Positions 4,721 to 28,119 of a stretch of 64,000 nt of DNA are shown here, in pieces. The notes beneath the pieces were generated by a model, which saw nothing but the letters and a program-made list of their open reading frames with translations, did not search any database and was not told the origin of the DNA. Both the position numbers and the translations under genes were made by a program. How positions within the stretch are numbered: the first letter of the stretch is position 1; every line of letters starts with the position of its first letter. This DNA comes from Myroides odoratus (lineage in GTDB: Bacteria > Bacteroidota > Bacteroidia > Flavobacteriales > Flavobacteriaceae), in NCBI RefSeq assembly GCF_001549985.1, contig NZ_LROZ01000012.1:1-64000 (forward strand). Direction: 5' to 3'.

Positions 4721-7700
4721 ATGTCAAAAAAGAGAAAGATAAATATAATAGAAGCTGCGATGAAATATCGTCAAGTGACAATAGCACTCGCAGTCATACT
4801 CTTGGGATTGGGAATTTATGCAGTAAAGCATATGTCTAGAGCAGAAAACCCTAATATTGAGATGCCCATCGCCATGGTGGTGTCTTTTTATCCCGGAGCA
4901 GATGTGTATCAAACGGAACAGCAAATTACAAAAAAGATTGAGCAATACCTGTTTACGTTTGAGGAGATTGACAAAAAGAAAACAACGTCTGAAACCAAAG
5001 CTGGACAAACATTTATCACGGTGCGTTTGCGTACTGAAGTAAAAGATAGAAAGCGCTTCTGGGCAACGTTACAACACGGTATGAATACAGAAGTGATGCC
5101 CAATTTACCTCAAGGGAGTATTGGACCGATTGTCAATAGTAGTTTTGGAGATGTAACCGCTTTGATTTTATCTCTTTCTTCACCCACGAAAGAGTATAGC
5201 GAACTAGAAGGGTATTTAGATCAGGTAGAAGATGAGCTAAAGACCCTTCCAACAGTGGCAAAGATTAATCGTTCGGGGCTTCAACAACCGCAAATTAGCG
5301 TAGAGATTAACAATCAAAAGCTATTGGATTACGGCATTACCACCACTCAAATTGTGTCGGTTTTACAAGCGCAGAATTTAACGATGTATTCAGGGGAAGT
5401 AAAAATGCCCAACAATACGATTCCTATTTTTACAACCAGTGAGATTGGAAGTCAACGCGATATCGAAAACCTGATGGTATATACCAATCCCAATGGAGAA
5501 GTAGTTCGCCTGCAAGATGTGGCTAAAATTGAGCGTTCTTATACGGATCGCACGTCCTTTATCCGCATGGGAGAAGATAAAGTATTGATGCTCGCTATAG
5601 AGATGCAAAGTGGAAATAATATCGTTGAATTTGGCGCATTAATCGATCAAAAATTAGCAGAAATAGGGAAGCGATTACCCCAAGACGTTAAAATAGATAC
5701 GATTGTGAGTCAACCTGATGCTGTTGATTTGAGTGTTTCTCACTTCATGACAGAGTTTGTTATGGCTATTGGTGCGTGTGTATTAGTTGTCGTGTTATTG
5801 TTGCCGTTCCGTGTAGCTGCTGTTGCTTCTATCGCTGCTCCGATTTCATTTATTATTACGTTCGGAATCATGAGCTTGTTTGGTATTGAATTGCATCAAG
5901 TATCCTTAGCTGCTTTGGTGATTGTATTGGGTATGGTCATTGATAATGCGATTGTCATTGTGGATAATTACGTCGAAAAACTCGATGAAGGGATTGATCC
6001 TTGGGCAGCTGCTTGGCAATCGGCTAGACAGTTAACGGTTCCTGTGCTTTCTGCTACTACGGCTATTATTTGTGCTTTTGCACCAATTCCGTTTTTTATG
6101 GATGGAATTGCAAGAGACTTCTTAATGGCTTTGCCTATAACGATTGCCATTGCGCTGATTTCTTCTCTTTTCGTTTCTTTCTTTATTACACCTTTAACGT
6201 GTTATGTGTTCATTAAAAAAGGATTACACAGCCCAGAGGAAACAGGAAGTAAAAAGAAGAAAAAGAATCTCTTGGATTACTTACAGCATTATTTTAATAA
6301 AGGAATCGCTTGGGCATTTCGACATCCAAAATACACCTATGTGATTGCCATTGGTTCTGTTGTTTTAGCATTGGGAATTGCTTCTCAAGTAGAACAGGAG
6401 TTTTATCCGTTGAGTGAAACCAAACAGTTCAATGTGGAATTATGGCTGCCAACGGGAACTTCTTTAGAAGAAACAGATAAAGTAGCCAAAGAAGTAGAAG
6501 CTATTTTTCAAAAAGATGAGCGCATAGTGAGTATTGCTAGCTTTATCGGAATGAGTTCTCCGCGTTTTAATGTCACCTATTCGCCAGAAATCCCAAGGGA
6601 AAACTATGCGCAGATTTTTATTACGACTCATGATGCAAAAGAAGCGAATCAAGTGGTACAAGAGTATTTACCACAGTTTGACTCCTTTTTAGAAGAGGGA
6701 TATGTTCGCTTACGTCAACTTAGTTTACAAGAAGGTGCACCTATTTCGATTCGCATTATTGGTGAGGATATCGAAGATCAAAAAAGAGTAGCGGATCAAA
6801 TTGAACAAATCTTGAAACGCCATAAGGGAACAAATTGGGTGCGTACGAGTTATCAAGAGGATTTGTTTTCGTTGAATATCGTTCCATTAGAAGATAAAGC
6901 TGAACGCTATGGGGTATTGAATTCCTCTATTGTACAAACGGTAGGAACGGGAACGAAAGGAGCGCCAGTTACGCGATTTTATGAAGGAGATAAACCCGTG
7001 GATGTACAGTTGCGCTTTGTTGAGGAGAACAGAAAGGACTTAGGGGATATTGCACAGATTTATGTGCCTTCTGTTTTTGGCCATGCCGTCCCGTTGAGTG
7101 AAGTAGCACAAGTAGTGCCACAATGGACTCCTGGAGTGATTACGCATCGCAATGGACTTCGCACACTAGAAGTAAATAGTGAAACCCAAAAGGGGATAAA
7201 GGCGGCCTCTATTATGGCTGATGTAAAAGAGGAAATCGATGCGATTCATCTACCCCATGGAATTAAAATTCAATACGGAGGAGATAGGGAAACATCAGAA
7301 GAAAACGGGCCAGCGATGATGAAAGCGTTAGGAGTTAGCTTGGTCTTGATTTTCTTGATTCTGATGATGGAATTCAAAACAATAGGCAAGTCGCTGTTTG
7401 TATTGGCCACTTTTCCTTTGAGTTTACTTGGCGCCTTTTTAGGGTTATGGGTAACGGGAAATCCAATGAGTATGACTGCTTTTATGGGAATTATTAGTTT
7501 GATTGGAATTGTTGTGCGTAATGGAATTATCATTGTCGATTATGCGGATGAATTAGTTCGCGATCACGGATATAGTCGCCGTGGAGCAGCATTAGCCGCC
7601 GCAAAACGACGCATGCGCCCCATCTTCTTAACCTCTGCAGCCGCAGCCGTAGCTGTACTGCCAATGATTATTGGTAAATCCCCCATGTGGGCACCTTTGG

Positions 7701-18345: not shown

Positions 18346-20304
18346 TTATTCATCATCTAAAGACCAAGAAAGAGGAAGTGTTGAATCTGCAGGAGATACG
18401 CGGACATACCCTTGCATTTCTTGGTGTAAAGCCGAACAGAAATCCGTACAATAGAAAGGCCAAACTCCTACTTGTTTGGGTTCCCATACAAAGGTTTCGG
18501 TTTTTCCAGGTGTAACTAAGAGTTCCGTTGTATTAGCCCCTAACATGCTGATTCCATGCGGTACGTCAAAATCTTGCTCTAAGTTGGTCACGTGGAAGTA
18601 GACTTTATCTCCCACTTTAATTCCCTCTATATTATCCGGTGTAAAGTGACTGCGAATCATCGTCATGTAAATGTGTACTTCTTTTCCGTTTCGCGTTACT
18701 TTTGTTTCGGCTGGGGATTTCGCTGCATAGGGATGTTTGTTTTCATCGAGCTTATAAATCTGTCGAGCCTTATCCTTGATCTTGTCCGCTTTAATAGCGG
18801 CTGCATAGTGTGGTTCTCCAATCGTTGGGAAGTCAAGTAGTAATTCCATTTTATCGCCAGAAATATCATACAGCTGAGCCGAATGGTTTAAGTCTGGTCC
18901 TACAGGTAAATAACGGTCTTTGGTGATTTTATTCATCGCTACCAAGTATTTTCCATCTGGTTTTCTGGAGTTTCCGCCAGGAATCATCAAGTGTCCAACC
19001 GAGTAGAAGGTTGGTTTGCGGTCAATAATCTCCCAAGTGCCTAATTTCCATTTTACTACTTCCGAAGAAATGAAGAAGGTCGTATACGCATTTCCTTGCC
19101 CATCAAACTCCGTGTGTAAAGGACCTAATCCTGGTTGTTCGACTACACCAGCCAATACATCCTCAAATTTTAAAATAGGTAGCCCATAAGCCTCACCATC
19201 AAATTTCTTTTTCTCAATCGCATCCAACATTTTTGTAAAAGAGTGTACTGTTAGATTCGCTGAGAGTTTACCATTTCCGATGATGTATTCACCTGATGGG
19301 TCAACATCACATCCATGGGGTGATTTGGGTGTAGGTAATAAATACACCAAATCAGGAAATTCACTCGCATCTAAAATGAGCACTTCTTCCTTCATGGTAT
19401 GGGTTGCCATATGTGTCGCATTGTCAAATTTATTATGTGCATATTTCACTGGCATCTTTTTTCCTTTTCCTGCTTTGATGTATTCTTCTGCTTTTTTCCA
19501 GTTGACTGCTGCAATAAAATCTTTGTCATTTTGTGAAGCATTCACCTCTAATAAACTATGAGCTTCTTCCGTATTATACGTCGTAAAGAAGAACCAACCA
19601 TGGGATTTACCACGCCCAGGGTGTGATAAGTCATAGTTGAAACCAGGCATCTGAATTTGGAAAGACAAATCCATCTCTCCTGATTTTGGATCTACTTTAA
19701 TGAAGGATAAGGATCCTTTAAAGTTTCCTTTGTACTCTTTAATTGGCATATCGCGTTGTGGAATAGGCACAGAGAAACGGGTTCCGGCCACTACATATTC
19801 GGTATTTTCCGTTACAAAAGAGGAGCTGTGATTTCCCGCACTATTGGGGATTTCAATAATTTCGGCTGTACTAAAATCTTCCAGATCGATACGAGCAATA
19901 CGAGGGGTGTTATTTCCATTGATGAAAATCCAACGACCATCTAACTCTCCATTGGTTTGCGAAATATCAGGGTGATGGGAGTCATCCCACGGAATAAAAC
20001 CATGAGAAGTCATCAACATGGGTTTTGTTTCTTCACTATAGCCATAGCCTTTTTCTGGATCTTGTGAGAATACAGGAATTACTTTAAACAGTCTTCCTGA
20101 AGGCAAACCATAGACCGATAATTGGCCGCTAAAACCCCCTGAAAAGAAACCATAGTATTCGTCGTATTCTCCAGGTGCTACATATACTTTTTCTGCTGCA
20201 TTGGAGGATAGCGCTCCTTTGTTATTTTGCTTTGCTTTGTTGCAACTGACGAAGGACAGTCCAGCCAAGCAACTGACTAAAGTGAAAGTTATATACTTTT
20301 TCAT
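18346..20304 (-). CDS. nosZ: NosZ, nitrous-oxide reductase (clade II, Sec-exported)
   Basis: 652 aa. The N-terminus has no twin-arginine motif but a Sec-type signal ending in LSFVSC (Cys21), which defines the clade II type and suggests a lipoprotein. The seven-bladed propeller carries the CuZ histidines in conserved surroundings: SHHPDIS, NHSSSFV, SPHGCDVDPSG, GLGPLHTEFDGQGN, LNHSAQLYDISGDKM and GEPHYAA. The C-terminal cupredoxin domain has the CuA ligands in FYCTDFCSALHQEMQGYV (C-x3-C-x3-H-x2-M). It reduces N2O to N2 in the periplasm, taking electrons probably from the cytochrome c encoded upstream. The protein is full length. Confidence 0.96.
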   Translation of the reverse strand: MKKYITFTLVSCLAGLSFVSCNKAKQNNKGALSSNAAEKVYVAPGEYDEYYGFFSGGFSGQLSVYGLPSGRLFKVIPVFSQDPEKGYGYSEETKPMLMTSHGFIPWDDSHHPDISQTNGELDGRWIFINGNNTPRIARIDLEDFSTAEIIEIPNSAGNHSSSFVTENTEYVVAGTRFSVPIPQRDMPIKEYKGNFKGSLSFIKVDPKSGEMDLSFQIQMPGFNYDLSHPGRGKSHGWFFFTTYNTEEAHSLLEVNASQNDKDFIAAVNWKKAEEYIKAGKGKKMPVKYAHNKFDNATHMATHTMKEEVLILDASEFPDLVYLLPTPKSPHGCDVDPSGEYIIGNGKLSANLTVHSFTKMLDAIEKKKFDGEAYGLPILKFEDVLAGVVEQPGLGPLHTEFDGQGNAYTTFFISSEVVKWKLGTWEIIDRKPTFYSVGHLMIPGGNSRKPDGKYLVAMNKITKDRYLPVGPDLNHSAQLYDISGDKMELLLDFPTIGEPHYAAAIKADKIKDKARQIYKLDENKHPYAAKSPAETKVTRNGKEVHIYMTMIRSHFTPDNIEGIKVGDKVYFHVTNLEQDFDVPHGISMLGANTTELLVTPGKTETFVWEPKQVGVWPFYCTDFCSALHQEMQGYVRVSPADSTLPLSWSLDDE

Positions 20305-20321: not shown

Positions 20322-20846
20322 TTACAGGGTTCTAAAATATTCCAATACAGCACGAGCCTCTTCTTCTGTAAGGTTTTGATTCGCCATAGGTGCACCATTG
20401 AATTCTTTCAGTAAATCTTGTGCTAGTGCATCGTTTTCAAGCATGTTCTCTGGGTTTAGAATCATATTCATCACCCATTCTGGCGTACGGCGTTCTAGAA
20501 TACCTTTAGGCGCTGGTCCAATAAATTTTTTATCTGGTTTGTGACAAGCCGTACACATGGTTTTGAATACTTCTTGGCCTTTTGCTGCCATGGCTTGATC
20601 AATATCGCCTAACAGTAAAGTTTTAATTGGTCCTTTCCCTTTATTTACTAAGTCAATTCGTTCAGAAGCAGGTGCATTTGCGGCATCTGTGGGTGCTGAA
20701 CTCGATGGGGTAGGAGTTGTCGTTTCTATTTTTCTTTCATTCGTTGTTACACTTTCTTCTGACATAGGTTTTGCCGATTTATCACCACATGATACGAGTG
20801 TTAAACAGCTTGCAAGTAGCATAAATGATAGCGCTTTTGATTTCAT
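20322..20846 (-). CDS. periplasmic mono-heme cytochrome c lipoprotein, likely NosZ electron donor
   Basis: 174 aa. Lipobox Cys20 (CLTLVSC), then a ~60-residue Ser/Thr/Pro/Ala-rich tether, then one cytochrome c domain with heme site C98-T-A-C101-H102 and probable distal ligand Met154 (GAPMANQ). First gene of the nos operon, 17 bp upstream of nosZ. In clade II clusters such lipoprotein cytochromes are the expected donors from the menaquinol/bc-type chain, and no nosR is present here. Confidence 0.9.
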   Translation of the reverse strand: MKSKALSFMLLASCLTLVSCGDKSAKPMSEESVTTNERKIETTTPTPSSSAPTDAANAPASERIDLVNKGKGPIKTLLLGDIDQAMAAKGQEVFKTMCTACHKPDKKFIGPAPKGILERRTPEWVMNMILNPENMLENDALAQDLLKEFNGAPMANQNLTEEEARAVLEYFRTL

Positions 20847-20919: not shown

Positions 20920-21092
20920 CAATTTGCGAAATAAAGGAGTTTTATGTCCTTTTTTTAATGTAGTTGTCGTTTGCCTGAAGATAGGCGTTTGATTTGTCGG
21001 TTTTAGGTGTAGAGTAAACACGGATGTTTGTGTTTATTTTCTTTTATTGTATTTAAATTTATATTTTATGTTAATAAGGATGGATGTTTTTC

Positions 21093-21140: not shown

Positions 21141-22310
21141 ATGAGAAAACAATTATTTGTACTGTTTTTTGTGTTGATTCAAATACACGCAACGGCTCAA
21201 AAGGGAATATTCAAACGAGGTACAATTAGTCCAAGTGTTTATAAAGAACAACTTAGTTATAACATTGTAGATAAGTTCATTTATGTAACCGTTGAAATAA
21301 AGGGAAAGGAATATGTTTTTATGGTGGATACAGGAGCTCCTTCAACGATTAGAAAAGGAGTAGATGTTGAAGCTGTTTTTGTTGAAAGTCAGCCTATTAT
21401 GGATGCTGTTCAAAATATACAGCAAGTAGAATATGTTGCTGTATCAGCAGTAAAAATAGGGAATTTAACGTTTGAAAATTTTGTGTTTATGCGGGAGGAT
21501 TTGTCCGTGTTTGACGATTTGGGGATTGATGGCATTATTGGAGGTAATATAACAGCTAAGAGTGTATGGGATTTTGATCTATATCACAATACGATTACGA
21601 TTTCAAGCCACTTAGACCAACAATTGAAGTCCGCCTCAAATTTTTCTCGTTTAAAAATAAAGAAAACGGATGTCGGAACTCCTATGGTAACCTTGACTTA
21701 CTTTGATAAGATTAAAGAAAAGGGGATTTTTTTTGATACGGGGTACAATGGATTGTTTTATTTAAGTTCTAGGATGTTTGAAAAGGTAAAACCGTATGTT
21801 CCGTCTTATATTACAGGTGAAGGAGTATTGAGTATGAATGCCTTTGGAAGTAGCTCTGGAGAAACTGCACTTTTGCCCTTAACCATGAAAATGGGAAAAC
21901 AATCGATTCCTACCTTTTTAGCTGATGTGGACGATGATGAGGAAAGTAATTTAGGGGTGGAATGGTTGTCTTACTATCGCGTAATTCTCCAAGGCAATGC
22001 ACTTTATTTTTCTCCATATGCACAAAGAAAGTTCGAGACGAAATTTAGCGGAAAAGGAATTAAAACGGAGATAGAAAACGGAGAGCTTGTGGTTGTATTT
22101 GTTTGGCACAACTCACCAGCACACCAATACGGAATTCAGGTAGGGGACAAAATACAAGCAGTAAATGGACAAGTTGTAGACCAATTACCTTTACTAAAAC
22201 AAAAAGAATTGAAAAAAGAAATACTGACTTCTCCTGAAATTACACTCGAAATTCATCGACTAAATAAGACCATTGTGCTAAAAGATGAGGTACTCTTAAC
22301 ATGGGAGTAA
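21141..22310 (+). CDS. secreted retropepsin-like aspartic protease with PDZ domain
   Basis: 389 aa. Signal peptide MRKQLFVLFFVLIQIHATAQ. Two aspartyl-protease half motifs are present: D63-T-G-A-P-S-T in FMVDTGAPSTI, and D199-T-G in IFFDTGYNGLFYLS, so the pseudo-dimer active site is complete. The C-terminus has a PDZ domain (AHQYGIQVGDKIQAVNGQVV). This periplasmic or surface peptidase family is common in Bacteroidota; substrates are not known. It is divergent from the nos operon and ends with a hairpin (22417-22444). Confidence 0.85.
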   Translation: MRKQLFVLFFVLIQIHATAQKGIFKRGTISPSVYKEQLSYNIVDKFIYVTVEIKGKEYVFMVDTGAPSTIRKGVDVEAVFVESQPIMDAVQNIQQVEYVAVSAVKIGNLTFENFVFMREDLSVFDDLGIDGIIGGNITAKSVWDFDLYHNTITISSHLDQQLKSASNFSRLKIKKTDVGTPMVTLTYFDKIKEKGIFFDTGYNGLFYLSSRMFEKVKPYVPSYITGEGVLSMNAFGSSSGETALLPLTMKMGKQSIPTFLADVDDDEESNLGVEWLSYYRVILQGNALYFSPYAQRKFETKFSGKGIKTEIENGELVVVFVWHNSPAHQYGIQVGDKIQAVNGQVVDQLPLLKQKELKKEILTSPEITLEIHRLNKTIVLKDEVLLTWE

Positions 22311-22566: not shown

Positions 22567-24699
22567 ATGAAAATTGTCTTTTTTACAGACGGTCTCGCTC
22601 CGCTTAGCACTTCTTTTTTTGCACCTGCTATATCGGTTGAAACACCAGCGATGCAGCCGTTGTCTTTTGCGTTTAATGGAAGTAATACCGCGATTTTACT
22701 CCTCCTTGTGATGGCTCTAGTGATGGTCGTTGCTTTTGGTTTTTTATATGTTGAAGCAAAACAGCTCGTGCAAACATATCAGGAGAGGAAAGCCATGCAG
22801 TTGAACCTAGAAAAGCAACCGCTTGCGTGCTTAAAATCTAATCAGCTACAACAATTACTTGATTTCCTACGAGTAAAAAAACACCTTATTGCGTTGGTTT
22901 TGGGGTTCTTTGTTCAAATGCCGCTTTGGGCCCAAACCTCAATGAAGTTAGAGGATCGCCCGCTTTTAAAAGAACCTGGTATTTGGATTATCCTTGTATT
23001 GATTGCTATTCCTATTATTTTAGGGGCTTGGATGATGGCGGTTCAGGTGTATCACGTCATTAAAAGTCAACGGCAAAAGGTACAAAAGCAAGAGGTAGAT
23101 CATTTGGTACATTATTTCGAGCATTTATCGGAAGAAGATCTTGAAGTGTTTATGCAGCGAAAAGAGGCCTTGGATTATACGCTTTCAAATCAAAAATTAT
23201 CAGGGGAGCAAGAGGCCCTAGATCAGAAAGGACTGATTAGTATTCAGGGAGGTGATGATGTACCTGTTGTAGCGGCAAAGCAGAAAAATGAAAAGAACCT
23301 TGATATCGATCCCAAGCATGCTCAAATAATACTGTGGTTTTTGGGTACAGCAAGTTTTTGGCTCCTATTGGGAACGACAGTAGGGGAGTATTTAGGTATT
23401 AAGTTTGTCGCGCCAGATATCGATCAAACCAGCTGGTTGAGTTTCGGTCGTTTGCGTCCTGTACATACCAATGCCGTATTTTGGGGTTGGTCTTCTTTGG
23501 GCATGATTGGTTTAGGCTACTATATTGTCCCTCGTGTAAGTAATACGGCATTGGCGAGTTACAAATGGGCGTGGTATTCGCTTATTTTGATTAATGCTTC
23601 GGTGTTGATTGGTTCCCTTAGTTTAATGGCAGGCATCAACAATGGAGGTGGTGAGTATCGCGAGTACATTTGGCCAATTATGTTGCTCTTTGCATTGGGG
23701 TTGTATTTTACCTTGCGCAACTACCTCAAGACGATCGCACAGCGTAAAACAGCAGCAATTTATATTTCAAATTGGTATATTGTCGCTGCCGTTATTTTTA
23801 TTACGATTGTTGCGTTAGTGGGATATCTTCCCTATTGGCAAGATGGATTGGGTGAAACCATTGTACAAGGCTACTATATGCATCAAGCAGTAGGTATGTG
23901 GTTTATGTTATTTACCTTGGGCATCGTCTATTATTTCGTGCCTCAACAGCTCAATAAACCCATTTATTCCTATAGTTTGGGAATCTTAGCCTTTTGGACC
24001 CAAATTCTATTTTACACCCTTATTGGCACCCATCACTTTGTGTTTAGTGCGATTCCGTGGTGGTTGCAAACGGTGGCTATTGTGGCCAGCGTAGGGATGG
24101 TTATTCCCGTAGTTGCAGGAACAACAAACTTCATCATGACCTTTAGTGGCGCTTGGCATAAGATAAAGGATAGTTATACCGTGCCTTTCTTTGTGGTGGG
24201 AATCATCTTTTACTTTACGGGGTCACTGCAAGGAACGGCAGAGTCTTTTCGCTTTACAAACTTATTGTGGCACTTTACGGATTTTACGGTTGCGCATTCG
24301 CATTTAACCATGTACGGCATTATTGCCTTTTTACTTTGGGGGGGAATTTACGCATTAGTCCCTCAGATAACGGGAAAAGAAGCCCCACAAATAACCATAG
24401 GAGCCCATTTTTGGTTAGCCCTTATTGGGTTGCTCTTTTATTCAATTCCTTTGATGTATGGCGGAACGCTACGCGGAATCTTGTGGATGGGCGATGCGCC
24501 TTTTATTGAAAGTGTAAAGCTTATGATGCCGTATTGGTTATGGCGCGCCATTGGTGGAAGCCTGATGTGGATCTCTCATTTGTTTTTCGCTTTTAATTTT
24601 TACAGCATGACCCGATCGTTACAGCTTAAGGAGAAGGACATTGCAGATATCGCACTTGCAAGGCTACAAGATCAAATCAAGTCTAGTACAAACGCTTAA
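22567..24699 (+). CDS. cbb3-type oxidase subunit I (CcoN-like) with ~245-residue N-terminal extension
   Basis: 710 aa. The C-terminal ~460 residues are a heme-copper oxidase subunit I of the C family. Key residues: H300 in LRPVHTNAVFWGW (low-spin heme), H439 in GYYMHQAVG (CuB), Y483 and H489/H490 in FYTLIGTHHFVF (cross-link Tyr and CuB), and H577/H579 in TVAHSHLTMYG (hemes). The Tyr-to-HisHis spacing is that of O2-reducing cbb3 enzymes, arguing against a nitric-oxide reductase. The N-terminal part is unusual: a hydrophobic helix at 41-62, a signal-like stretch LIALVLGFFVQMPLWAQ, another helix at 138-160, then a charged segment to ~245. Unlike the CcoNO fusion I expect in this phylum, CcoO is a separate gene 9 bp downstream. 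Confidence 0.88.
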   Translation: MKIVFFTDGLAPLSTSFFAPAISVETPAMQPLSFAFNGSNTAILLLLVMALVMVVAFGFLYVEAKQLVQTYQERKAMQLNLEKQPLACLKSNQLQQLLDFLRVKKHLIALVLGFFVQMPLWAQTSMKLEDRPLLKEPGIWIILVLIAIPIILGAWMMAVQVYHVIKSQRQKVQKQEVDHLVHYFEHLSEEDLEVFMQRKEALDYTLSNQKLSGEQEALDQKGLISIQGGDDVPVVAAKQKNEKNLDIDPKHAQIILWFLGTASFWLLLGTTVGEYLGIKFVAPDIDQTSWLSFGRLRPVHTNAVFWGWSSLGMIGLGYYIVPRVSNTALASYKWAWYSLILINASVLIGSLSLMAGINNGGGEYREYIWPIMLLFALGLYFTLRNYLKTIAQRKTAAIYISNWYIVAAVIFITIVALVGYLPYWQDGLGETIVQGYYMHQAVGMWFMLFTLGIVYYFVPQQLNKPIYSYSLGILAFWTQILFYTLIGTHHFVFSAIPWWLQTVAIVASVGMVIPVVAGTTNFIMTFSGAWHKIKDSYTVPFFVVGIIFYFTGSLQGTAESFRFTNLLWHFTDFTVAHSHLTMYGIIAFLLWGGIYALVPQITGKEAPQITIGAHFWLALIGLLFYSIPLMYGGTLRGILWMGDAPFIESVKLMMPYWLWRAIGGSLMWISHLFFAFNFYSMTRSLQLKEKDIADIALARLQDQIKSSTNA

Positions 24700-24708
24700 T
24701 TTTTAGTT

Positions 24709-25725
24709 ATGGATATTTTTAACAATCATAAAAAATTATACCTCGTTGCCAGTGTATTATTTGGAGTATTAACGCTGTTTGTTGCCATTCTACCTGCTTT
24801 GGACAATCAATCGAGCATTCAACCTCTTCCTGATGCAGTGCCTTTAAGTGAAGCCGCAGTACGCGGTAAAAAAGTATTTATTGCCAATGGATGTGTAGCT
24901 TGTCACAGTCAGCAAGTACGAAATGTAGAAATGGATCGCAAATGGGGAAGTAGACCATCTATGGCTGCAGATTATGCTGGAAATAAGCGAATCGATGCCT
25001 GGATCAATACTGCTACCTTGATGGGAACAGAACGCACAGGTCCCGATTTAACAGATATAGGCACGCGACAACCTAGTAGTGATTGGCATCTCGTACATCT
25101 TTTTAATCCGCGTATTGTAGTCAAAGAATCTATTATGCCTGCGTATCCTTTTTTGTTCCAATACAAGCACAATCCTGCTGATACTGATGTTGTCGTTAGC
25201 ATACCAGAAGGTTATATAAAACAAGGAAAAGGACAAGTGGTTGCGCGTCAGGAGGCTTTAGATTTAGTAGCGTATTTGCGTGAATTGAAACAAGCCAAAT
25301 TACCAGAAGCAGCTGTAGCACCAGAATTCCTGTATCCCTTAAAGGAAAAAACGACGCTTCAAGCAGAAGGAGGAACAGGGGATACAGGCGTAGACGGGAA
25401 GAACCTCTACGCAACGAATTGTGCTTCTTGTCATCAGAGTAATGGAGAAGGATTAGCAGGTGCTTTTCCACCGTTGAAGAACAGTCCCATTGTCCTAGCA
25501 GATAACGTGCAACTCTTTGTGGATATTATTATGAACGGATATGATGCTAGAGGAGAATATGGAGTCATGCCAGCAGTGGGAACAAACCTCAACTGGACCG
25601 CAAACGAGGTAACAGCTATTGTCAATTATGAGCGAAATAATTGGGGCAATCAAGCACCTTTGGTCACCGTAGAGGAAGTAAAAGAAATTATGGATTACAT
25701 TAACGAAATGAAAGCAAAGCAATGA
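24709..25725 (+). CDS. diheme CcoO-type cytochrome c subunit (CcoO fused to a second cytochrome c domain)
   Basis: 338 aa. One N-terminal membrane anchor (YLVASVLFGVLTLFVAILP). The first domain is CcoO-like, with heme site C62-V-A-C65-H66, TERTGPDLTDIG, SDWHLVHLFNPRIVV and ligand Met in SIMPAYP. A linker leads to a second cytochrome c domain with C238-A-S-C241-H242 (CASCHQSNGEG) and MPAVG near its end, resembling a CcoP heme domain. It would relay electrons to the CcoN-like subunit. Its stop codon overlaps the next start (ATGA). Confidence 0.9.
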   Translation: MDIFNNHKKLYLVASVLFGVLTLFVAILPALDNQSSIQPLPDAVPLSEAAVRGKKVFIANGCVACHSQQVRNVEMDRKWGSRPSMAADYAGNKRIDAWINTATLMGTERTGPDLTDIGTRQPSSDWHLVHLFNPRIVVKESIMPAYPFLFQYKHNPADTDVVVSIPEGYIKQGKGQVVARQEALDLVAYLRELKQAKLPEAAVAPEFLYPLKEKTTLQAEGGTGDTGVDGKNLYATNCASCHQSNGEGLAGAFPPLKNSPIVLADNVQLFVDIIMNGYDARGEYGVMPAVGTNLNWTANEVTAIVNYERNNWGNQAPLVTVEEVKEIMDYINEMKAKQ

Positions 25726-26009
25726 AAGTAAAACAAAATATTATCGTTGGATTACTCAGTTTCTTCACTACAAGCACGCTGATGGCTTGTCCCGTTTGTG
25801 AACGCAATCAACCCAAGGTATTAAAGGGTATTGTACATGGTGCTGGTCCCGATAGCCAATGGGATTATTTCATCATTACAGCTGTTGCAGTAATCGTAGT
25901 TTTGACGTTGTTTTTTTCAGTTAAATGGCTGATTAAACCAGGAGAAAGGAATGATAATCACATTAAAAGAACTGTTTTAAATGGGCTGAATCATGGAACA
26001 AAAAAGTAA
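25722..26009 (+). CDS. small membrane protein of the cbb3 operon with CPVC motif
   Basis: 95 aa. A signal-like N-terminus ends in LMACPVC, which could be a lipobox at Cys23 or a metal/redox C23-P-V-C26 pair facing the periplasm. One membrane helix follows at about 50-70 (YFIITAVAVIVVLTLFFSV), then a basic tail (GERNDNHIKR). Translationally coupled to the diheme subunit by ATGA, so it is probably an oxidase accessory or CcoQ-like subunit. I do not recognise a named family. Confidence 0.7.
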   Translation: MKVKQNIIVGLLSFFTTSTLMACPVCERNQPKVLKGIVHGAGPDSQWDYFIITAVAVIVVLTLFFSVKWLIKPGERNDNHIKRTVLNGLNHGTKK

Positions 26010-26391
26010 AGTTTACCTCTTCCTCGATGAGGAACCTCAACCTATCGCGGTTTTAGAAACGCCAATTACCTTTGCATTAGATACGCATAAGTTGATTGAT
26101 GGGGATCATCTTCTGACCCTTGTCAGTAAAGATTATACCGGAAAAGAAGGAATTCGCAAGATTCCCTTCACCGTTAGAAATGGACCTGCTATAGCCGTGG
26201 AAGGCATTAAAGAAGATGCTGTCGTTGATGGTATTGTCGATATTATGGTCAATGCCTATGGAAAAGGAGATCCCAAAACGTTTTTGGTGACGGGCAGTGA
26301 AACACCGCAAAGTATTCCGTATTGGGTGTGGATTACCATAATTGTCGTTGTCGCTTGGGGCATTTATTATATGGTGCGGTATTTTGGATAA
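25993..26391 (+). CDS. tail-anchored Ig-like protein of the cbb3 operon
   Basis: 132 aa. It overlaps the preceding gene by 17 bp, indicating co-translation. The soluble ~105 residues look like a small beta-sandwich (KVYLFLDEEPQPIAVLETPI, DGDHLLTLVSKDYTGKEGI), and the C-terminus is a single membrane helix (YWVWITIIVVVAWGIYYMV). No signal peptide precedes it. No family is recognised; the operon position suggests an accessory role in the oxidase. Confidence 0.65.
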   Translation: MEQKSKVYLFLDEEPQPIAVLETPITFALDTHKLIDGDHLLTLVSKDYTGKEGIRKIPFTVRNGPAIAVEGIKEDAVVDGIVDIMVNAYGKGDPKTFLVTGSETPQSIPYWVWITIIVVVAWGIYYMVRYFG

Positions 26392-26419
26392 GAGGTTAAG
26401 GGTATGGGTTGCATGAAAC

Positions 26420-26461
26420 TGTCCACCGTCCACCGTCCACTGTTCACCGTTCACCGTTCAC
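26420..26461. repeat. 7-bp tandem array, six units N-GTNNAC
   Basis: Six consecutive heptamers (tgtccac, cgtccac, cgtccac, tgttcac, cgttcac, cgttcac), the same consensus as the arrays around the tRNA-like genes at 27.7-28.1 kb. Confidence 0.85.
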
Positions 26462-26691
26462 CATTCCCTGACTCTTGTTCGGGTTTCGTTTGGGTCACCT
26501 TCGGTAAAATGGGCTTTAACCCACGTAAACCCAAGGATGACCCGAACAACTACAGAACAAACCCCTAGGGGTGTTTTTGTTCAGTTTTGATAATCAGCTT
26601 GTTGTATTTTTTAAAATAACCAAAAAAGGCATAAGAAAGGAAAAAAAGGAGTAAAAGAGGAAACTTTACGGGATACGTATTGCCGAAATAA

Positions 26692-26731: not shown

Positions 26732-26962
26732 CTACTTTAAATCAGCAATAGAAGCTCCAAAGTTGATGTGTAACACATGGCCATTTGGTAAAACTAAAGC
26801 GGGAACCGATTGTACTCCAAGGCGTTCTGCTTCTAATACCTTTTCTTGCTCTTCTCCTAAGTGAATAATTTCAATAGGGTGATCAGCAATTAAGTGTAAT
26901 AAATCCTGCTCTGCGCTCACGCAAACGGGACAACCTGCGTGATAAAAAACTACTTTTTTCAT
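26732..26962 (-). CDS. thioredoxin-fold protein, CPVC type
   Basis: 76 aa. The glutaredoxin/NrdH-like layout is complete in miniature: beta strand VVFYHAGCPVC with the CxxC active site near residues 11-14, a helix, IEIIHLGEEQE, then the cis-Pro loop VQSVPALVLPNGHVL. No signal peptide, so it is cytoplasmic. It probably carries out thiol-disulphide exchange; partners are unknown. Confidence 0.8.
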   Translation of the reverse strand: MKKVVFYHAGCPVCVSAEQDLLHLIADHPIEIIHLGEEQEKVLEAERLGVQSVPALVLPNGHVLHINFGASIADLK

Positions 26963-27680: not shown

Positions 27681-27771
27681 AGTTTACGGTTGACAGTTGA
27701 CAGTTAACTGTGCACCGTACACCGTCAACCGTAAACTGTACACTGTACACCATCAACTGTACACCGTACAC
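27681..27771. repeat. 7-bp tandem array, 13 units N-GTNNAC
   Basis: Thirteen back-to-back heptamers (agtttac, ggttgac, agttgac ... tgtacac, cgtacac; one is catcaac). The GTNNAC core is self-complementary in pattern. It ends 7 bp before the first tRNA-like gene. Confidence 0.9.
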
Positions 27772-27778
27772 CAAAAAT

Positions 27779-27848
27779 GGTTCCGTGGCTGAGTGGTAGG
27801 CCTGGTTACGCAATAACCAGTAGGTTGGTTCGAATCCAACCGGAACCT
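27779..27848 (+). tRNA. tRNA-Cys-like gene, anticodon GCA, copy 1
   Basis: 70 nt. Acceptor stem ggttccg / cggaacc (7 bp), D arm gctgagtggtaggc with a weak 3-bp stem, anticodon stem tggtt / aacca with loop acgcaat, variable gtag, T arm gttgg-ttcgaat-ccaac, discriminator T, CCA not encoded. The anticodon reads GCA, but position 33 is C instead of the near-universal T. The outline matches Bacteroidota tRNA-Cys. Whether it is charged and used is unknown. Confidence 0.75.
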
Positions 27849-27854
27849 CAAGTT

Positions 27855-27952
27855 AGTTTACGGTGTACGGTTAACTGTTAACTGTTAACTGTTAACCGTA
27901 CACCGTAAACTGTACACCGTAAACTGTACACCGTAAACTGTACACCGTACAC
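27855..27952. repeat. 7-bp tandem array, 14 units N-GTNNAC
   Basis: Fourteen uninterrupted heptamers between the two tRNA-like genes, including tgttaac three times and alternating cgtaaac/tgtacac units. Confidence 0.92.
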
Positions 27953-27959
27953 CAAAAAT

Positions 27960-28029
27960 GGTTCCGTGGCTGAGTGGTAGGCCTGGTTACGCAATAACCA
28001 GTAGGTTGGTTCGAATCCAACCGGAACCT
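27960..28029 (+). tRNA. tRNA-Cys-like gene, anticodon GCA, copy 2
   Basis: Identical over all 70 nt to copy 1, 181 bp downstream; flanking bases caccaaaaat before and caagttagtt after are also the same. It carries the same C33 anticodon loop. A tandem duplication of gene plus flank is the simplest explanation. Confidence 0.75.
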
Positions 28030-28035
28030 CAAGTT

Positions 28036-28119
28036 AGTTGACGGTTTATGGTTAACAGTTAACAGTTAACTGTAAACCGTAAACTGTACACCGTCAACCA
28101 TTAACTGTGCACCGTCAAC
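28036..28119. repeat. 7-bp tandem array, 12 units N-GTNNAC
   Basis: Twelve heptamers after the second tRNA-like gene, two of them degenerate (ggtttat, cattaac). Confidence 0.85.

Follow-up and report, generated by a model that had tools for sequence, protein, structure and literature searches.

The cbb3-type (C-family) heme-copper oxidases are built from CcoN, CcoO and CcoP, and in Bacteroidota a CcoNO fusion is accompanied by CcoP. The tested enzymes of V. cholerae and R. sphaeroides are strongly inhibited by nitric oxide (NO) (PMC9266656), and that of P. stutzeri has NO reductase activity (PMC8780969, PMC9266656; papers are cited here and below from excerpts). A precedent for an inhibitor-induced isoform that supports respiration under inhibitor stress is P. 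aeruginosa CcoN4, a cyanide-induced orphan cbb3 subunit (PMC10790758). Here we describe a four-gene unit at positions 22567–26391 of a 64,000-nucleotide stretch of Myroides odoratus (assembly GCF_001549985.1, contig NZ_LROZ01000012.1, positions 1–64,000), referred to below as the window. We consider, with a probability of about 0.6, that it encodes a cbb3-type cytochrome c oxidase variant whose family belongs to an Rrf2-controlled NO response, being NO-inducible and probably NO-tolerant or NO-consuming. CcoN4 differs from it in being an exchangeable CcoN rather than a rearranged four-gene enzyme, and in its regulator (MpaR) and inhibitor.

The four genes, all on the forward strand, encode a 710-aa CcoN variant (subunit I; 22567–24699; catalytic core about residues 250–690), a 338-aa fusion of CcoO with a mono-heme cytochrome c (24709–25725) and two small membrane proteins of 95 aa (25722–26009) and 132 aa (25993–26391), whose genes overlap their predecessors by 4 and 17 nt. 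The open reading frames (ORFs) lie where the initial annotation had placed them, the two small overlapping membrane genes included. A scan of named species genomes yielded 454 pattern-matched relatives; the best 80 of these 454 loci were inspected and all carry Bacteroidota names. ORF calling recovered gene 1 at every one of these 80 loci, gene 2 at 79, gene 3 at 70 and gene 4 at 69; the full set of four was seen at 64, and contig ends or ORF-caller losses account for some of the gaps. Within a class sample of 295 genomes the variant occurs in 12 at E ≤ 1e-80 (13 loci), and the same four genes stand in the same order in all 12 class-level loci fetched besides the window. Judged by sequence, the four-gene unit is real, distinct and present in many species; its distribution is patchy, and the closest relatives among the matches listed are from Myroides (82% and 68%).

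Subunit I contains a complete cbb3-type core. PF00115 (COX1) spans residues 254–665 (E 9.3e-82), and the alignment with P. stutzeri cbb3 subunit I covers residues 258–692. Conservation was read across 90 variants, made up of 77 of the 80 named loci (L042, L081 and L092 were dropped by the motif filter) and 13 more. Six histidine ligands (H300, H439, H489, H490, H577 and H579) and Y483, which aligns to the helix-VII active-site tyrosine Y251 of P. stutzeri, are invariant in 90/90, in agreement with the earlier statement that the CuB and heme histidines and the active-site tyrosine are kept; the loss of core ligands that would have spoken against it did not appear, the ligands being intact. An AlphaFold model of the CcoN variant (59 sequences) has a mean predicted local distance difference test score (pLDDT) of 71, and a fold search confined to the core, residues 246–685, returned cbb3 CcoN first (Z 44.5 over residues 246–688) and cNOR next (Z 41). 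With the subunit I fold, the six histidines, the helix-VII tyrosine and a CcoO mono-heme domain replacing CuA all in place, the window unit, on this evidence, encodes a C-family (cbb3-type) heme-copper oxidase that is distinct from the CcoNO fusion.

The surroundings of the active site are altered. Where P. stutzeri has S240, H243 and E323, which we take to be the K-channel-analogue residues of the cbb3 proton path, all 90 variants carry Gly472, Ala475 and Gln555, whereas the same positions in 43 canonical CcoN are serine in 100%, histidine in 98% and glutamate in 100%; Gln479 and Thr484 are new invariant residues in the variants. The positions of the catalytic glutamates of NO reductases (NORs), presumably E211 and E280 in the numbering of P. 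aeruginosa NorB, are glutamate in 18/18 and about 83% of 18 NORs and are Gly443 and Met511 in the variant. Membership of the cNOR/qNOR family was rejected on these residues, the NOR glutamates being absent and Tyr483 kept (90/90).

Although the fold, the histidines, the tyrosine and the CcoO-type heme c domain are those of canonical cbb3 oxidases, the variant is only about 27–33% identical to them and scores 250.1 bits against the TIGR00780 ccoN equivalog cut-off of 583.15. Its own genome holds three further heme-copper subunit I matches, namely an A-family-like protein (by score), a qNOR and an ordinary CcoNO fusion that is 33% identical to the variant CcoN. A tree was built from 49 proteins, among them 24 hand-picked members of the 90 variants, 16 of the 43 canonical CcoN and 6 of the 18 NORs. 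In it the variants form one clade (support 100/99) that is separate from the canonical CcoN clade (100/100) and from the NOR clade (100/100); the tree leaves the exact placement of this clade undecided, and long branches were flagged. Among the matches listed, betaproteobacterial plasmid proteins are also cbb3-like, with Paraburkholderia (L202, 35.5% identity) at the top and Cupriavidus (L203) at 35.1%. Both share the variant's glutamine at 555, and L202 has separate CcoN, CcoO and cytochrome c genes; their subunits I (554 and 529 aa) are too short for the double N-terminal module described below, have serine at 472 and pair together in the tree, apart from the variant. The suggestion that this is an under-described oxidase variant thus fits a distinct clade found in many species and unlike the CcoNO fusion of its own genome, and no description of the four-gene variant was found in the open-access literature among the matches listed, as judged by title and opening abstract.

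The link to NO comes from the genes around the variant. Near the 80 named loci we found genes for Rrf2 proteins (55), truncated globins (47), ScdA/RIC (30), hemerythrins (27) and ferredoxin-like proteins (25); Pfam searches with one member of each confirmed all but the ferredoxin-like assignment. A matched control was available in 40 of the 50 searched genomes, those in which a canonical CcoNO locus was fetched. Variant and canonical loci of these 40 genomes differ in Rrf2 (23 v 0), truncated globin (22 v 1), ScdA (16 v 6), hemerythrin (11 v 0) and Crp/Fnr (5 v 27), and the variant counts are unchanged when the flanks are trimmed to the controls' 9 kb, a few loci of both kinds ending early. 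Three cysteines are invariant in the neighbouring Rrf2 proteins (59/59).

Two side observations concern this neighbourhood. Locus L092 (15529–16797) encodes a 422-aa protein that matches PF00115 at 1.3e-8 and 34.6 bits, just below the 34.8 cut-off; members of its cluster are found close to the variant at 7/80 loci. On an alphaproteobacterial Roseinatronobacter plasmid (L205, 2345–7230) a canonical ccoNO-Q-P operon adjoins genes for an Rrf2 protein and a truncated haemoglobin of group III; here a cbb3 oxidase is paired, independently, with partners of these same two kinds, although the plasmid Rrf2 protein is only distantly related (median 22% identity).

A dyad, AATAAAAGA-N8-TCTTTTATT, was found upstream of the variant-linked Rrf2 genes and is a candidate Rrf2 operator. 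At up to 3 mismatches, 58/79 loci have it in the 1.5 kb that precede the variant (L037 was left out, having too little upstream sequence), against 0.25 expected from shuffles, a count that is partly circular because the motif was derived from those loci. By the same measure it occurs at 0/40 canonical CcoNO loci, 8/17 NOR loci and 3/12 class loci. Independent support comes from the M. odoratus genome, which contains only two exact dyads, one at an Rrf2-qNOR-RIC operon and one at a flavohaemoglobin gene beside a second Rrf2 gene; RIC and the 'NO-inducible flavohemoprotein' score over their cut-offs, and qNOR was recognised by its PDB match. At ≤1 mismatch, ten other variant genomes gave 9 sites, of which 6 fall about 5 kb or less from the variant, 2 at hmp and 1 at nirK. 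Looser searches are less informative, since at 2 mismatches the ten genomes gave 42 matches against 19 in the control (the control exceeding the real count in 2/10), and in the M. odoratus genome at ≤3 mismatches 51 matches against 42 in the reversed control are mostly noise.

Further sites were noted in Myroides. The Rrf2-qNOR-RIC operon occupies 245–1720 and 5428–8905 of L182 (own genome C1:40000-59900), with its exact dyad upstream. The second Rrf2 gene adjoins the flavohaemoglobin gene at 5730–7517 of L240 (own genome C12:52000-66000), where two tandem dyads precede hmp, one exact and one with 2 mismatches. A 3-mismatch site accompanies the own-genome nirK (TIGR02376, 345.8 bits, over cut-off), and the nirK counterpart in M. 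odoratimimus has one with a single mismatch (L243, 11960). The Rrf2-qNOR-RIC operon and nirK would thereby belong to a candidate NO/denitrification regulon of Myroides.

This set resembles the NsrR-type NO regulons (PMC1274295, PMC9268430) in its Rrf2-family regulator, and RIC, hmp and NO reductase genes are targets in both. In several bacteria NsrR represses the gene for RIC (PMC9268430). The present set differs in the operator, which is gATGyAT-N5-ATrCATc for NsrR, in Rrf2 proteins that score far below the NsrR cut-off, and in having an oxidase as a target, at least relative to the regulons as excerpted. Both Rrf2 proteins that adjoin the own-genome dyads pass the Rrf2 superfamily cut-off and neither passes that of NsrR or IscR, which is why we infer their sensing of NO rather than read it from family membership.

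Several observations weigh against the NO-response reading. The window copy has no Rrf2, globin or ScdA gene close by, and no operator-like site lies within 1.5 kb of its ccoN even at ≤4 mismatches; the nearest, at 20930, has 3 mismatches, lies beyond another gene and is individually weak. Sites at ≤3 mismatches within 1.5 kb are also missing from 21/79 named loci and 9/12 class loci, and the variant occurs in 0/5 same-genus genomes of the class sample. The hmp-linked Rrf2 protein scores 45.5 bits against the NsrR cut-off of 182 (NF008240), the qNOR-linked one has no NsrR match at E ≤ 1e-10, and the NO tolerance of the enzyme itself is inferred only from neighbouring genes.

The nearest window site is a candidate Rrf2 operator at 20930–20955 (3 mismatches of 18; no strand assigned) in the interval that separates the nos operon from the gene preceding ccoN. 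That gene, encoding an aspartyl protease/PDZ protein (21141–22310, forward strand), is missing at the corresponding place in Myroides sp. NP-2 (L028), where divergent nos and ccoN directly flank the corresponding site. Two named loci have both the nos cytochrome c and nosZ; the Myroides locus has a site ahead of these genes at ≤3 mismatches, and L085 has none.

The protein of gene 2 matches FixO over residues 7–159 (7.6e-28) and Cytochrom_C over residues 229–307 (4.9e-18), and two CxxCH motifs are present in 78/79 relatives; the candidate heme ligands Met143 and Met287 occur, the window included, in 80/80 and 79/80. The initial annotation had called CcoO a separate gene, which holds insofar as it stands apart from ccoN, but it is not a plain CcoO, being fused to a second cytochrome c domain. 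Its domain order resembles, by name and match range, the bifunctional CcoO-cytochrome c family PRK14486/NF011054, and a score of 112.7 bits against a cut-off of 447 marks a related architecture and not a member. The four-gene unit has no separate diheme CcoP gene and so departs from the canonical CcoNOP arrangement; in addition to the fused gene 2 it has two new small proteins.

The 95-aa protein of gene 3 has a signal peptide, a CPVC motif, an HGxGP motif, one transmembrane (TM) helix and a KPGE..HIK motif, with C23, C26, H39 and H80 invariant in 71/71; the 132-aa protein of gene 4 has an N-terminal domain (Ig-like by eye) and a C-terminal TM helix. Neither scores above the cut-off of any Pfam or NCBIfam family, and neither has a convincing PDB relative, gene 4 having none below E 0.2. 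We provisionally take them to be subunits or copper/assembly factors.

Since the PF00115 match and the P. stutzeri alignment begin at residues 254 and 258, the first ~250 residues of ccoN are additional to the core, as was proposed from a stretch of ~245 residues with three hydrophobic segments (by eye at about 40–62, 107–122 and 137–160). Nor does this stretch align with ordinary cbb3 subunit I, as the CcoN of the same genome starts where the variant core starts. Residues 1 to ~250 are a duplicated module of signal-peptide-like segment, TM helix and charged tail (hhalign between the two copies, E 3.9e-16). Module 1 (residues 1–125; 22567–22941, forward strand) has all three elements, and module 2 (residues 126–250; 22942–23316, forward strand) a TM helix and a charged linker. 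The TM part of module 1 matches the N-terminal TM segment of canonical CcoP at 8.4e-7 and the other module does so at 7.3e-6. TM composition was rejected as the source of these matches, the core TM-window controls being far weaker (12 windows against the CcoP N-terminus, best 0.0095; 24 comparisons with modules 1 and 2, best 4e-4). One tidy reading of these short matches, and of the CcoP-like heme domain fused to CcoO, is that CcoP may have been dismantled, its membrane module passing to the N-terminus of CcoN and its heme domain to the C-terminus of CcoO.

A long N-terminus is present in 78/90 relatives and a short form in 12; the aligned piece of module 2 occurs in 90/90 and is the sole module in those 12. 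Relative to the closest relative, residues 46–125 are 39% identical, compared with 93% in the core, with dN/dS of ~0.36 (nonsynonymous rate dN 0.575, synonymous rate dS 1.60). A mis-called start was rejected because 78/90 relatives have the long form and the substitutions favour synonymous sites, and the N-terminal part looks genuinely coded, though under weak constraint. The predicted structure of the modules has low confidence, with helices at 2–17, 38–80, 137–185 and 189–202 and low confidence between them. One genome (G144), from an order with only 5 genomes in the sample, holds two variant copies (L015, L016), one with a long and one with a short N-terminus.

In the mechanism we propose, NO (or nitrite) would disable an Fe-S-type Rrf2 repressor bound to the dyad, and the operon would be expressed. 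Cytochrome c would supply electrons, by way of the two c hemes and then heme b, to the b3-CuB site, where O2 would be reduced, and NO probably turned over too, under conditions that inhibit ordinary oxidases. Below Tyr483 the proton route would be rebuilt through the replacement of serine by G472 and histidine by A475 and the new residues Q479 and T484.

The initial annotation had linked the oxidase to N2O respiration by location, the window copy being one gene away from the nos operon. A statistical association with nosZ does exist, in that nosZ is present in 10/12 variant-bearing and 85/283 other class genomes (Fisher 3e-4, kinship not corrected for) and in 37/50 named variant genomes; the family is more strongly linked with NO-response genes. 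The distance from variant to nosZ is at most 60 kb in 8/36 genomes, with 0.9 expected (one of the 8 being the window's close relative), and canonical CcoNO and nosZ in 3/34, with 0.8 expected; the proximity count covers 36 of the 37 nosZ-bearing genomes, the position of the variant being listed for 48/50.

These associations invite the proposal that the variant is a genuine respiratory NO reductase within the C family, with CuB and tyrosine kept, that fills the missing-nor gap of nirK/nosZ Bacteroidota. In the window's own genome the Rrf2-X-RIC slot that the variant takes elsewhere is held by qNOR, which shares the dyad and, with cNOR, the superfamily fold. A qNOR/cNOR match (E ≤ 1e-20) occurs in 17/50 variant genomes and is lacking in 33/50; nirK is over its cut-off in 14/50, of which 7 are without such a match, and all 7 have nosZ. 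The cleanest case is Agriterribacter humi (L085), which has nirK and nosZ and in which the variant is one of just two heme-copper subunit I matches found, and a third of nirK- and nosZ-bearing Bacteroidetes are stated to be without norB (PMC4250227). Yet the NOR glutamate positions are glycine and methionine in the variant and the tyrosine that NORs lack is kept, a qNOR is already present in M. odoratus and NORs in 17 of the 50 genomes, and the counts of NOR absence reflect a search with one qNOR protein, with NirS and other NO reductases not searched and several genomes metagenome-assembled or drafts. We therefore regard a dedicated NO reductase as unlikely, and we are similarly doubtful of the wider formulation, in which the variant would be a previously unrecognised NO or dual O2/NO reductase, NO-induced via the Rrf2 dyad, that stands in for the absent nor, linking nirK to clade II nosZ, in some Bacteroidota. 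Mutual exclusion of variant and NOR was rejected: among 12 variant and 24 NOR class genomes, one, the window's, has both, which is about the number expected by chance.

The nosZ association, together with the globin and hemerythrin neighbours, would also suit a high-affinity oxidase that scavenges O2 under micro-oxic conditions to protect NosZ or other O2-labile enzymes, with Rrf2 sensing O2 or the Fe-S state and not NO. By score, NsrR is not a nearer match for the Rrf2 proteins than IscR or other Fe-S Rrf2 models are, and a protective role is stated for ccoNO in the excerpted source (PMC11879220). The dyad, however, lies at qNOR-RIC, flavohaemoglobin and nirK and at 0/40 canonical CcoNO loci, which sit with Crp/Fnr genes instead (27/40), and we consider this explanation improbable. 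Least probable of all is an accessory cbb3 paralogue of the ordinary kind, serving at low O2 and with incidental neighbours; the canonical catalytic residues are all kept and the window copy has no NO-related neighbours, but the matched-genome neighbourhood and operator controls speak otherwise, and we already disfavour it.

What is new is a rearranged four-gene cbb3-type unit in many species and, above all, its link to the regulon: operator and neighbours place the unit among NO-response genes in most of the 80 loci, though the tested canonical cbb3 enzymes are NO-inhibited (PMC9266656). The NO-gene company of a cbb3-type enzyme therefore makes it testable how a C-family site can be tuned for NO, and also whether nirK/nosZ Bacteroidota without nor are a real gap. 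Were the variant an NO reductase, certain genomes scored as nor-less could turn NO into N2 with an enzyme annotated as a cbb3 oxidase. The dyad is a candidate NO operator for the phylum Bacteroidota, and the rearranged subunits, with CcoP-like parts on CcoN and CcoO, and the rebuilt proton path are a natural experiment.

The adjoining nos operon includes a Sec-dependent nosZ (18346–20304, reverse strand; TIGR04246, 958.8 bits against a cut-off of 625), which we take to belong to clade II, and, upstream of it, a cytochrome c gene (20322–20846, reverse strand; PF00034, 1.2e-9) whose product is lipoprotein-like by eye. Downstream of the unit a small thioredoxin/glutaredoxin-like gene (26732–26962, reverse strand) gave weak matches only; its relatives lie near the variant in L028, L030 and L079 (3/80 loci). 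Intergenic arrays of 7-bp repeat units occupy 26418–26462 and 27685–28119, and a 181-bp unit repeated 2.4 times holds two tRNA-Cys genes (27779–27849 and 27960–28030).

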